Part shown: piece after piece, positions 5,315 through 63,160 of the stretch
How positions within the stretch are numbered: the first letter of the stretch is position 1
Layout: every line of letters begins with the position of its first letter
From: Streptomyces sp. AM 4-1-1
Lineage (GTDB): Bacteria > Actinomycetota > Actinomycetes > Streptomycetales > Streptomycetaceae
Direction: 5' to 3'
Length of the DNA stretch: 64,000 nt
Assembly: GCF_029167625.1 (NCBI RefSeq)
Contig: NZ_CP119145.1
Coordinates: forward strand, 186,001 to 250,000
Notes under the pieces: generated by a model
The model's input: only the letters and a program-made list of their open reading frames with translations
What the model was told of the DNA's origin: nothing
The model's database searches: none
Made by a program: the position numbers and the translations under genes

Positions 5315-5877
5315 GGCGTCACGTCCTCGATCGCCTCGACGATGTGCGGATAGGCACCGCAGCGGCACAGGTTCCCGCTCATCCGCTCGCGGATCTCGGG
5401 CCTGTTGAGCGGCGCCGGGGTGGTGACGGGTTCGATGTCCGGGGTGGCGTGGGACGGGAAGCCGTCCGCCGCCTCGCCGAGCATCCCCACGGCGGAGCAG
5501 AGCTGACCGGGGGTGCAGTATCCGCACTGGAAGGCGTCCCGGTCGAGGAACGCCTGCTGCACCGGGTGCAGGTCCTCGCCGTCGGCCAGGCCCTCGACGG
5601 TGGTGATGCGGGAACCGTCGTACGCGACGGCGAACAGCAGACAGCTGTTGGCCCTGCGGCCGTCGACGAGGACCGTGCACGCTCCGCACTGACCGTGGTC
5701 GCAGCCCTTCTTGGCCCCCGCGAGTCCCAGGTGTTCGCGCAGGGCGTCCAGGACCGTGGTGCGGTGGTCGAGCGTCAGGGTGTGCTCGGTCCCGTTGACC
5801 CGCAGGGTCAGGGTGGAGCGGTCGTCGGTCACCGGCGGCTGCTCCGGGCCGTCCTCCCGCTGGCTGATGAGGTCCAC
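5311..5877 (-). CDS. 2Fe-2S subunit of aldehyde/xanthine dehydrogenase (PaoA type)
   Basis: 188 residues. Two-domain ferredoxin subunit with a plant-type 2Fe-2S site ([21 protein letters not shown], Cys spacing C-x4-C-x2-C) and a C-terminal 2Fe-2S site ([10 protein letters not shown] ... [10 protein letters not shown]). E. coli PaoA has a Tat signal. Here no twin-arginine segment precedes the domain, so the enzyme is probably cytoplasmic. Start GTG 5877 is preceded by GAAAGG 9-10 nt upstream; an in-frame GTG at 5832 is an alternative. First gene of the paoABC-like operon. Confidence 0.92.
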
Positions 5878-59978: not shown

Positions 59979-60270
59979 ATGGGGCGCACCGGACCCGTTC
60001 CCAGGCCGGGCCGGTGACCGTCGCTGCCCGCGCCCACGGCCCCGTCACCATCCCCTCGCTTCACTCGAACGGCCTAGTGCGGGTGGCGGCGGCCGCAGGC
60101 GCGCGGTGGTGGGCCGTGATGGGCGTCCCCGCACCTGGCGGGTCCGCCGGAGGCCGTCCTCCGGTGCCCGGCGGTTGCACGGTCCTACGGGGTGAGGCGC
60201 GATGGAAGTCGGGCGCGCCTCCCCTGGGGGACTCACCCACAGGACGCGCTCGGGCGAGGAGGAATCGGTC

Positions 60271-61233
60271 ATGGGTGCCGCTGACGGTTTCACGGATTCC
60301 GGAGAGCTCGACGGCCTGACGGTCTACGACAGTGACGGGGAGAAGATCGGAAATGTGGGGCGGGTGTACGTCGACGACGACACCGGCAAGCCGGACTGGA
60401 TCACGGTCAAGACCGGTCTGTTCGGCATGAAGGAGAGCTTCGTACCGCTCTCCGGGGCCCGGCGGTCGGGTTCCGACCTGCACATCTCGCATCCCAAGGA
60501 CCGCGTCAAGGACGCCCCGAGGGTCGACGCGGACGCGCATCTGTCCGTCTCGGAGGAGGAAGAGCTCTACCGGCACTACGGACTGACCCGGAACCGCACG
60601 ACGAAGCTCGGCGACCGGTCCGGCACCGGCACCGGGACGCCCGACGCGTCCCGCGCGGGTGTTCTGGGTGCCGCGGGCGCCGGAGCGGGCGCCGGAGCGG
60701 CGGGTACCGCGCGTACCGCCGGTGATCCGGCCGGTACGGGCAAGCACCGGAACGCGGACGCGTCCGCCATGTCCCGTCCGATGGCGGGGGCGGGAGCGGA
60801 GCGGTCGGCTCCCGGCATGGGCGGCAAGGAGGAGGTCATCCGGTCCGAGGAGCAGCTGCGCGTCGGCACGGAGGAGTACGAGAGCGGCAAGGCGCATCTG
60901 CGCAAGTACGTGGTGACCGAGAACGTCACCAGGACGGTGCCCGTGAGCCATGAAGAGGTGCGGATGGTCCGTGAACCTCTGCGGGGCGACGAGAAGTCGA
61001 CCCGGGCGTCGGACATCGGCGAGCAGGACGTGGAGGTCACGCTGCACGCGGAGCGTGCCACGGTCCGCAAGGAGGCCGTGCCGGTGGAACGGGTGCGTCT
61101 GGAGACCGACCGGGTCACCGAACAGAAGGAGGTCTCCGCCGAGGTCCGCAAGGAGCAGGTCGACTACGCGGACGGCTCGGAGAAGGGCGGCAAGGACGCG
61201 GGCGGCGAGTTCGGCCGCGGTCGTCGCCGCTGA
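60271..61233 (+). CDS. PRC-barrel plus DUF2382 stress-type protein
   Basis: 320 residues. Residues 1-75 are a PRC-barrel (LDGLTVYDSDGEKIGNVGRVYVD). A disordered Gly/Ala/Thr linker (~110-185) follows, then a DUF2382 domain (residues ~185-310) with its strand repeats (EEQLRVGTEEYESGKAHLRK, VPVERVRLETDRVTEQKEV). Common in desiccation- and radiation-tolerant bacteria; biochemical role unknown. AGGAGG 8 nt before ATG 60271. Confidence 0.9.
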   Translation: MGAADGFTDSGELDGLTVYDSDGEKIGNVGRVYVDDDTGKPDWITVKTGLFGMKESFVPLSGARRSGSDLHISHPKDRVKDAPRVDADAHLSVSEEEELYRHYGLTRNRTTKLGDRSGTGTGTPDASRAGVLGAAGAGAGAGAAGTARTAGDPAGTGKHRNADASAMSRPMAGAGAERSAPGMGGKEEVIRSEEQLRVGTEEYESGKAHLRKYVVTENVTRTVPVSHEEVRMVREPLRGDEKSTRASDIGEQDVEVTLHAERATVRKEAVPVERVRLETDRVTEQKEVSAEVRKEQVDYADGSEKGGKDAGGEFGRGRRR

Positions 61234-61266
61234 CCCTCCGCATCGGCGGGGACAGTCACACACACC

Positions 61267-61302
61267 GGGTGAGGGGCGGGCCGCAGGGTCCGCCCCTCAC
61301 CC
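61267..61302. terminator. Terminator hairpin after the PRC-barrel gene
   Basis: Perfect 13-bp stem GGGTGAGGGGCGG / CCGCCCCTCACCC with a 10-nt loop, 34 bp after the stop. It would also stop minus-strand transcription coming from the riboswitch. Confidence 0.85.
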
Positions 61303-61384
61303 CGTGGGCCGGTGCCGGGGTGTTCGCCGCCCCGGCACCGGCCCGTGCGCGGGCGCCGGGGCGGCCTCTCAGGTCCGCCGCGTG

Positions 61385-61612
61385 GCCCCGCCCGGGCAGG
61401 AAGCGCACCGAGGGCCGGGCGTCCAACCGGTCCGGGGGACCGCCGCGGTCACGCGGTGGACGTCCGCGATGGGTTCCGCGGTGATCACCTCGTGCGGGGA
61501 CACCGCCCGCGACGACCCGGCCCTGTTCCGTGACGACGATCCGCTCGCAGAACACCGCCGGGAGACTGTTGGGGTCGTGCGGCGCGACGACGGCAGTTCC
61601 CCGGCGTCCCAC
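61385..61612 (-). pseudogene. Frame-shifted C-terminal remnant of an ABC transporter ATPase (B12/iron-siderophore type)
   Basis: One minus-strand frame reads VVAPHDPN followed by AVFCERIVVTEQGRVVAGGVPA, matching the His-loop and following strand of FecE/BtuD-type ATPases (typically HDLN..A.YCDR.VVL..GRVVA.G.P). The match continues in another frame (HEVITAEPIADVHRVTAAV), then returns as DARPSVRFLPG. Two frameshifts are needed. Walker A, signature and Walker B regions are absent, as is most of the gene. It lies directly downstream of the cobalamin riboswitch, so it was probably part of a B12 importer. No intact partner remains in the window. Confidence 0.6.
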
Positions 61613-61667
61613 GGCTCGTGCGCGGAGCCTGGTGTCCGTGTGCCGTGTCCGGTCCCGGGCGCGGCCG

Positions 61668-61825
61668 CCGGCGGGTCTTCGGACTCGGGTTCACACGGAG
61701 GAGGCGCCTTCCCGGGAACCCGTGGGCGTCCCAGTGGCCTTGGCCCCGCCCGTCCCCTGACCGCTGCGCGTCAGCTCCGGACTCGCACCGGATTTCCTGA
61801 CCCCCGCATGGGGCTTCACCAGCAT
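61668..61825 (-). promoter_or_regulatory. Cobalamin (adenosylcobalamin) riboswitch
   Basis: Read on the minus strand, the order of conserved elements is GGTGAAGCCCC, then AGGAAATCCGGTGCGAGTCC and GGAGCTGACGCGCAGCGGT (core), then GGCCACTGGGA (B12 box GCCACTG), GGGAAGGCGCC, and finally CGAGTCCGAAGACCCGCC. This order and spacing match the cobalamin class. The only coding trace downstream on this strand is the broken ABC ATPase. The 111-bp gap between the riboswitch and the ketosynthase stop has no other feature. Confidence 0.88.
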
Positions 61826-61936
61826 TTAGCGAACTGTCACGCGGTCGATGACCGCCCGGCGGGGGTGTGCGCGGGGGCAGTACGCCAGGCCGGTGGCCCG
61901 GCGTTCCGCCCCCGTTCCGTGGCCCGTCGACCCGGT

Positions 61937-63160
61937 TCAGGGACGCTGGAGCGCCAGTACGGCGTTGTGTCCGCCGAATCCGAAGGAGTGGCTGACGGCC
62001 CGTCCGACGGGTTGCCTCAGCGGTTGTTTGGTGACGCAGTTGAGGTCGAACTCGGGCGCGGGCGCGTCGAGGTTCGCGATCGGTGGTACGACGCCGTGCT
62101 GAAGGGTGAGGATGGTCAGCCCGGCCTCGATCGCGCCCGCCGCCCCCATGCAGTGGCCGAGCACGCCCTTGGGGGCGGTGACGGGCGGCCGGTGCGGGTA
62201 GACCCGGCTGATGAGGGCGGCCTCGGTCGCGTCGTTCATCGGGGTCGCGGTCCCGTGGGCGTTGACGTGCTCGACGTCCTCCGGCCGCCACCCCGCGTCA
62301 CGCAGCGCCGACTCGACCGCGGCCTGGGCGACGGCGCCCGAGGGAAGCGGGCTGGTCGGGTGGTGGGCGTCGGTGGTGGCGCCCGTACCGGCGAGCAGCG
62401 CGCGGGGGGCCGCGCCCCGGGCGCGCGCGTCGTCGGCCCGTTCCAGCACCATGATGGCGGCGCCCTCACCCATGACCAGTCCGCGGCGGTCGGCGGCGAA
62501 CGGGCGGCACAGCCCGGCCGGGTCGCCGTCCGCGGGAGCGGCGGCGCCGGAGCGGGCGAGGCCCGTCATGGCGACCGGGTAGATGATCGACTCGGTGGCC
62601 CCGGCGACCGCGATGTCGCACTGGCCGGTGACCAGCAGGTCGCGGGCGACGGACAGCGCGGTGACGCCGGACGAGCACGCGGTGCACGGCGCCAGGCTGG
62701 GGCCGGTGGCCCGCATGTCGATGGCGATCTCCGCCGCGGGCATGTTGGGGATGGTGAGCAGGATGCCCGACGGTGAGGTGGCGCTCGGGCCGCGCCGGTC
62801 GAGGGTGACGGCCTGCGCGGTGAGTCCGGCCGAGCCGCCGCTGCTGGTGCCGACGACCACCGCGACCCGGGTGCCGTCCCAGTCGGCGGGGTCGAGTCCG
62901 GCGTCCGCGACCGCCTCCCTGGCCGCGAGGACGGCGAACTTGACGTACTTCCCCATCCGGAAGGCGGTCCTTCCGCCGATCCGGGCGTCGAGGCCGGTGT
63001 CGTCGACCGTGCAGGCGAAGTCGACCACGCATCCGTCGAGCTCCGGCACGGTGTGGGCCGAGGAGACCCCGGCGCACACGCCGTTCCAGGTGGTCTCGGT
63101 GTCGTGGCCGGCCGGAGTGATCATTCCCAGGCCGGTGACGACGACGGTGTGACGGCTCAT
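61937..63160 (-). CDS. FabF-like beta-ketoacyl-ACP synthase
   Basis: 407 residues, thiolase fold. Catalytic Cys in PCTACSSG (~165), His in VNAHGTATPMND (~302), Lys/His in PKGVLGHCMGAAGA (~335), and the C-terminal HSFGFGGHNAVL. All catalytic residues are present, so it is an active condensing enzyme rather than a chain-length factor. ATG 63160 overlaps the acyl carrier protein stop (ATGA). Together with the ACP and an acyl-CoA dehydrogenase/oxidase it suggests a small secondary-metabolite or special fatty-acid pathway. Confidence 0.92.
   Translation of the reverse strand: MSRHTVVVTGLGMITPAGHDTETTWNGVCAGVSSAHTVPELDGCVVDFACTVDDTGLDARIGGRTAFRMGKYVKFAVLAAREAVADAGLDPADWDGTRVAVVVGTSSGGSAGLTAQAVTLDRRGPSATSPSGILLTIPNMPAAEIAIDMRATGPSLAPCTACSSGVTALSVARDLLVTGQCDIAVAGATESIIYPVAMTGLARSGAAAPADGDPAGLCRPFAADRRGLVMGEGAAIMVLERADDARARGAAPRALLAGTGATTDAHHPTSPLPSGAVAQAAVESALRDAGWRPEDVEHVNAHGTATPMNDATEAALISRVYPHRPPVTAPKGVLGHCMGAAGAIEAGLTILTLQHGVVPPIANLDAPAPEFDLNCVTKQPLRQPVGRAVSHSFGFGGHNAVLALQRP

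Follow-up and report, generated by a model that had tools for sequence, protein, structure and literature searches.

A full-length cobalamin riboswitch in this Streptomyces genome is very probably a relict. We put at about 0.9 the probability that it was left behind by a deletion of ~2.7 kb, which removed the importer operon under its control, and that it is now decaying. The sequence analysed, here called the window, is the 64-kb stretch G000:C1:186001-250000, taken from an assembly of two contigs totaling 7.47 Mb. In the mechanism that we propose, an ancestor would have carried an ABC importer operon (binding lipoprotein, FecCD permease, and ATPase), controlled by the cobalamin riboswitch and flanked by genes for a ketoacyl synthase and a PRC/DUF2382 protein. 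A single deletion, between two places alike for a few bases, would have taken everything from the binding-protein start codon up to the ATPase H-loop. A dead ATPase tail would now stand behind the riboswitch with its leader, and both would be drifting under relaxed selection.

The riboswitch and its surroundings

The aptamer is present in full. It matches the Rfam cobalamin riboswitch (RF00174) on the minus strand at 61839-61653, with 70.2 bits (cut-off 31.5), an E-value of 2.7e-15 and coverage of model positions 1-189 of 189. This is the sole match within the window that reaches an Rfam gathering score. A preliminary description of this DNA had proposed a complete-looking minus-strand cobalamin riboswitch within 61385..61825; the covariance model bears this out, with a match that starts 14 bases beyond that interval. 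Behind the riboswitch lies nothing but a frameshifted ATPase tail. No intact minus-strand gene follows, and no gene of B12 import, biosynthesis, or utilization occupies the controlled position.

The sequence elements around the aptamer have changed. At its 5' edge, all 24 intact orthologs have a TAnnnT hexamer where the window reads CAGTTC (61831..61836, minus strand). This block is perhaps a -10 box, lost in the window; a consensus scan of 60900-62100 detected neither a promoter nor a terminator. Comparison with relatives places the leader, from the aptamer to the former binding-protein start, at 61598..61652 on the minus strand. The ribosome-binding site, within 61596-61605, reads GGGG for GAGG.

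The PRC-barrel/DUF2382 gene (60202-61233) lies on the opposite strand, convergent with the ATPase remnant. Between its end and the remnant are two GC-rich inverted repeats (61268-61301 and 61306-61344) that lack a T run; these are possibly a terminator serving both strands. The window also contains mutA, mutB, meaB, and cbiZ, the first three further left than cbiZ, and the preliminary description had rightly named mutAB and cbiZ as neighbors.

Loss of the importer operon

Relatives retain a complete operon at this place. We compared the DNA around this site first with 61 genomes, the window's own among them, and then with 392. In relatives that have both the riboswitch half and the tail half, the two match far apart; among the matches listed, the window's own genome is the only one of the 392 with both halves in one piece. 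All 13 relative regions that we fetched (L074-L086) carry the riboswitch followed by a binding protein, a FecCD permease, and an ATPase, the proteins being located by tblastn. This answers the synteny comparison proposed in the preliminary description. In one intact relative, L076, Pfam identifies Peripla_BP_2, FecCD, and ABC_tran. The two halves lie ~2.7 kb apart in 13/13 of these relatives, and ~2.7 kb of their sequence is missing from the window. Taken with the RF00174 E-value, this spacing of the orthologous halves makes the layout more than a chance resemblance.

The deletion junction falls at the binding-protein GTG start codon. Alignment with relatives places it at 61590..61597 (minus strand); the exact base cannot be named because both sides resemble the window at 61590-61597. 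In 23 of the 24 intact loci, the GTG stands 5-6 bases past GAGG or GGGG and opens a lipoprotein-type signal; for the odd one, L083, the script located the GTG elsewhere. Because ~2.7 kb is missing and the junction sits at this GTG, the loss is that of the whole three-gene importer operon and not of one gene. Thus, the earlier proposal that the switch outlived its gene holds in that the riboswitch outlived its target, while the target itself has to be redrawn: three genes were lost, the first of which encoded a binding protein and not an ATPase. The operon was probably lost in a single event.

Neither the binding protein nor the permease was found at the window locus. A permease of the lost type was also not found elsewhere in the genome (E <= 1e-100; genome rated 99.99% complete), where the best binding-protein match is 30% identical. 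The ketoacyl-synthase search found no sister above 86-88% identity in that gene.

It is very unlikely that the operon is really present and was masked by an assembly or sequencing error. Separate frameshifts and many substitutions lie beside the junction, the search at E <= 1e-100 found no such permease in a nearly complete genome, and a like event is seen in another genome (L113, described below).

The ATPase remnant

What remains of the operon is the tail of its last gene. The ABC ATPase remnant (61384..61597, minus strand) aligns from residue 206 of the 277-residue ATPase of intact relatives. It contains insertions of 3 nt and 1 nt and a deletion of 1 nt, giving two frameshifts. The H-loop has changed from LHDLN to PHDPN, and everything N-terminal of the H-loop region, including the Walker and signature motifs, is missing. 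The preliminary description was accurate on both counts, having reported an ATPase fragment that needs two frameshifts and lacks its N-terminal motifs.

A 118-aa GTG open reading frame lies over the remnant (61256..61612, minus strand) and is probably not a gene. It starts inside the old leader and is in frame with the beginning of the ATPase tail, as would be expected of a new riboswitch-controlled fusion protein. Its start is, however, upstream of the changed ribosome-binding site, it is off the ancestral frame between the two frameshifts, and it has no Pfam match at E <= 0.01. We consider such a fusion protein extremely unlikely.

Change in the aptamer

The window aptamer has accumulated changes at conserved columns. 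The Rfam score of 70.2 bits compares with 80.4-100.6 bits for 17 intact orthologs (two of them partial matches) and 80.1 bits for the orphan riboswitch of L113. After near-duplicates L101 and L112 were dropped, 24 intact orthologs were identical at 117 aptamer columns. The window departs from them at 11 of these columns (106 of 117 kept) and L113 at 2. When each intact ortholog is compared with the other 23, private changes number 0-1 in 23/24; the exception is L083, with 10, an intact but distant lineage with other neighbors.

No such excess of changes is seen in the neighboring ketoacyl synthase, which we used as a clock. Its private changes number 22 in the window, against 12 in L079, 25 in L085, 16 in L095, and 12 in L103. 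Set against 6 aptamer and 123 synthase changes pooled over 18 intact loci, the window's 11 and 22 give a Fisher p of 2.8e-5 over all codon positions, in a test that was picked after the alignment was seen and that uses sequences related to each other. Six intact loci without a synthase match, L083 among them, were left out. With third positions only, the ratio is 11:7 in the window versus 6:61 in the pooled intact loci (p = 1.1e-5). For the orphan L113 it is 2:4 (p = 0.04).

The helices give a mixed picture. Most aptamer pairs are kept; those broken or lost are 124/175, 73/202, and 114/188, together with 256/274 in the leader. At helix columns 34/205, both sides have changed, from A-U to G-C, with pairing preserved, and the neighboring pair 33/206 has become U-G. 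The compensated pair fits a structure that was retained for a while, perhaps before the deletion. Folded alone, the window RNA gives an uninformative z of 0.31. We also considered damage from GGAAA in place of GGGAA next to P5. This was dropped, as a comparable form occurs in a second riboswitch of the genome; our script detected the P5-adjacent motif in 4 of the 10 genome hits, the window's own included.

These changes bear on whether the RNA has a use of its own. The riboswitch could have been kept as a stand-alone B12-sensing RNA, acting in trans or as an antisense RNA to the PRC/DUF2382 gene, which converges on it and now ends ~420 bases away. Its full length, its score far above the Rfam cut-off and the one compensated helix pair would suit such a role, and antisense-acting cobalamin riboswitches are on record (PMC9943018). 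Against this, the excess of private changes at conserved columns is not what is expected of a sequence kept by selection. The TAnnnT hexamer is broken both in the window and in L113, where it reads TAGCTC. Among the matches listed, no second genome of the 392 has the two halves joined, and the inverted repeats, despite lacking a T run, intervene before the PRC gene. We regard a retained stand-alone or antisense RNA as very improbable. It is a similarly long shot that a B12 aptamer still able to fold was released by the deletion close to the 3' end of a convergent gene and has become a young B12-responsive RNA, antisense or stand-alone. The suggestion in the preliminary description that the RNA might have been reused as a regulator in its own right thus finds no support here. 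As judged from sequence comparison, a decaying relict is favored because 11 conserved columns have changed with no comparable excess in the neighboring gene, and the window RNA is probably idle now.

Loss of the operon in other Streptomyces

The same operon has been lost several times in the genus, the window being one case. The relatives that share its gene order are Streptomyces. Querying public genomes with the flanking ketoacyl synthase yielded 34 loci, and we examined the 28 from Streptomyces, of which L115 and some others are short or end at a contig boundary. The riboswitch and all three genes are present in 12/28 (L093, L095, L097, L099, L101, L103, L104, and L108-L112). Two more (L090 and L098) have the riboswitch and an operon with a lesion or a missing end; in L090, the ATPase match ends at residue 228. 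In five loci (L089, L091, L094, L096, and L114), the flanks are present and the operon is wholly gone, and in six (L092, L102, L105, L106, L107, and L115), the PRC gene is not beside the synthase. Gene remnants without a riboswitch match occur in L088 and L100 (2/28). Apparent duplicates are L112 and L082, L103 and G140, and L091 and L141.

One of the 28 closely parallels the window. L113 (Streptomyces sp. CB00316) has a riboswitch, confirmed by Rfam, with the mere ends of the first and last genes. Because it retains the binding-protein start and ATPase residues 178-268, its loss is an independent event. Rfam found no riboswitch in L088, L089, L091, L092, L102, or L114; the remaining riboswitch-negative loci were judged by BLAST alone. 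In four further genomes with the synthase and without the permease type (one of which duplicates L091), the operon is wholly gone between the synthase and the PRC gene.

Riboswitches also persist elsewhere without the permease. Besides the window's, 15 genomes have a match to the riboswitch region and no permease of the lost type, and we fetched 11 of these (all except G064, G216, G312, and G382). Rfam matches a riboswitch in 10/11, the exception being L135. Partial losses of the same operon with the riboswitch kept are seen in three: L128 (68.4 bits) has a binding protein and an ATPase tail, L129 (83.4 bits) an ATPase split over two frames, and L138 (72.7 bits) a broken binding protein and a piece of the permease. 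A different importer stands behind the switch in L132, L133, and L137, and no part of either importer was found in L130, L131, L134, L135, or L136.

Several single loci merit description. In L098 (Streptomyces parvus JCM 4069; L098:12776-14258), the permease match breaks off at residue 320 and the ATPase is matched from residue 45 on; a deletion spanning both genes is likely, with the riboswitch still there. In L100 (Streptomyces sp. McG3; L100:11336-11572), scraps of the permease (308-333) and ATPase (112-167) lie between the synthase and the PRC gene. Riboswitches without importer genes nearby occur in L130, L131, and L134 (L134:4352-4762, minus strand). The open reading frame behind the L134 riboswitch has a cysteine-rich start that by eye is 2Fe-2S ferredoxin-like.

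Relation to known systems

The locus is ordinary in kind and has a clean evolutionary explanation. It resembles other RF00174 riboswitches in its full-length match over the gathering score and in the 106 of 117 invariant columns that it keeps. It differs in having no intact downstream gene, in its 11 changed columns and in its broken pairs. Its intact orthologs have the Pfam composition (Peripla_BP_2, FecCD, and ABC_tran in L076) of FecCD-type, BtuFCD-like importer operons behind cobalamin riboswitches, whereas the window retains the ATPase tail alone.

Cobalamin riboswitches beside broken genes have been described before. In Cutibacterium acnes, they occur upstream of pseudogenes (PMC9600381); the fragments there have been described as adhesin-like, whereas here an importer operon was lost and relatives reveal the ancestral state. 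Antisense-acting riboswitches include 50 cases beside pseudogenes, read as fortuitous (PMC9943018). The window riboswitch is like the antisense-acting ones in lying opposite the neighboring gene's strand near its 3' end, and unlike them in showing no sign of regulating the PRC gene. The B12 riboswitches of S. coelicolor are discussed in PMC4991794. Among the open-access papers searched, we found no account of this locus.

The locus is a natural experiment, on a small scale, in the fading of a regulatory RNA whose operon has been deleted. It can be aligned column by column with intact orthologs, with an independent orphan, and with several partial losses. It also cautions against taking a high-scoring riboswitch match as proof that a gene is regulated, and a riboswitch makes a poor proxy for an importer in metabolic reconstruction.

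Other riboswitches and importers in the genome

The genome retains other riboswitch-linked loci for probable importers, one of them FecCD-type and others ECF-type. At E <= 0.001, it yields 10 hits to the cobalamin riboswitch model, of which 9, the window's among them, exceed the cut-off. One of them (L070:6954-7099) is followed by a FecCD permease, an ABC ATPase, and a Peripla_BP_2 protein, which make up a probable second importer. The L073 hits flank a DUF4430 protein, an ECF S-component, a double ATPase, and a CbiQ-like protein with a prenyltransferase-toroid protein; this ECF transporter locus spans L073:3411-11699 (G000:C1:6390411-6398699). Its DUF4430 and toroid proteins presumably resemble transcobalamin-type binders. 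A second, related ECF S-component is encoded at G000:C1:1691304, close to another of the riboswitch hits (L071). The earlier suggestion that the strain lost a B12 importer therefore stands for one probable importer, but not for import as a whole, since these other loci remain. Such redundancy may have made the loss tolerable.

The corrinoid substrate of the two FecCD-type importers is assigned from their riboswitches because their NCBIfam scores fall short of the cut-off for every family shown. For L076, the best NCBIfam scores are to putative F420-0 and EitA/EitC models, with BtuC/BtuD lower. We infer that the lost importer carried corrinoids.

The lost and second importer types co-occur less often than expected. 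Of 391 other genomes of the genus, 116 have the lost permease type, 96 have the second type (E <= 1e-120), and 13 have both, which corresponds to an odds ratio of 0.29 (Fisher p = 5.5e-5, with genomes counted as independent of phylogeny). Phylogeny is likewise ignored at E <= 1e-100, where 25 of the 122 genomes with the second type have both (p = 0.008), and at E <= 1e-150 (4 of 40; p = 0.003). The lost-permease set is 117 genomes minus G129 (51% identity), with G398 (a partial match in a 55% complete genome) kept. No signal is seen among genomes whose flanking synthase is at least 80% identical over nearly its full length (read by eye; partial match G248 left out): the second type occurs in 7/17 with the lost operon versus 3/5 without it, the window genome included. 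A close second-type match (70%) was present in 2/13 other genomes searched. These counts give a hint at most that the second type may have replaced the lost operon.

The other riboswitch hits stand beside different genes. They include CobN (L069) and a ribonucleotide reductase (L072), and one divergent pair lies ~140 bases apart at G000:C1:6750293-6750795 (L068:5294-5481, minus strand, and 5622-5796, plus strand). One member of this pair faces metE. The other faces a methylmalonate-semialdehyde dehydrogenase gene (NCBIfam TIGR01722 over cut-off), followed by a further open reading frame; to our knowledge, a B12 switch on such a gene is unusual.
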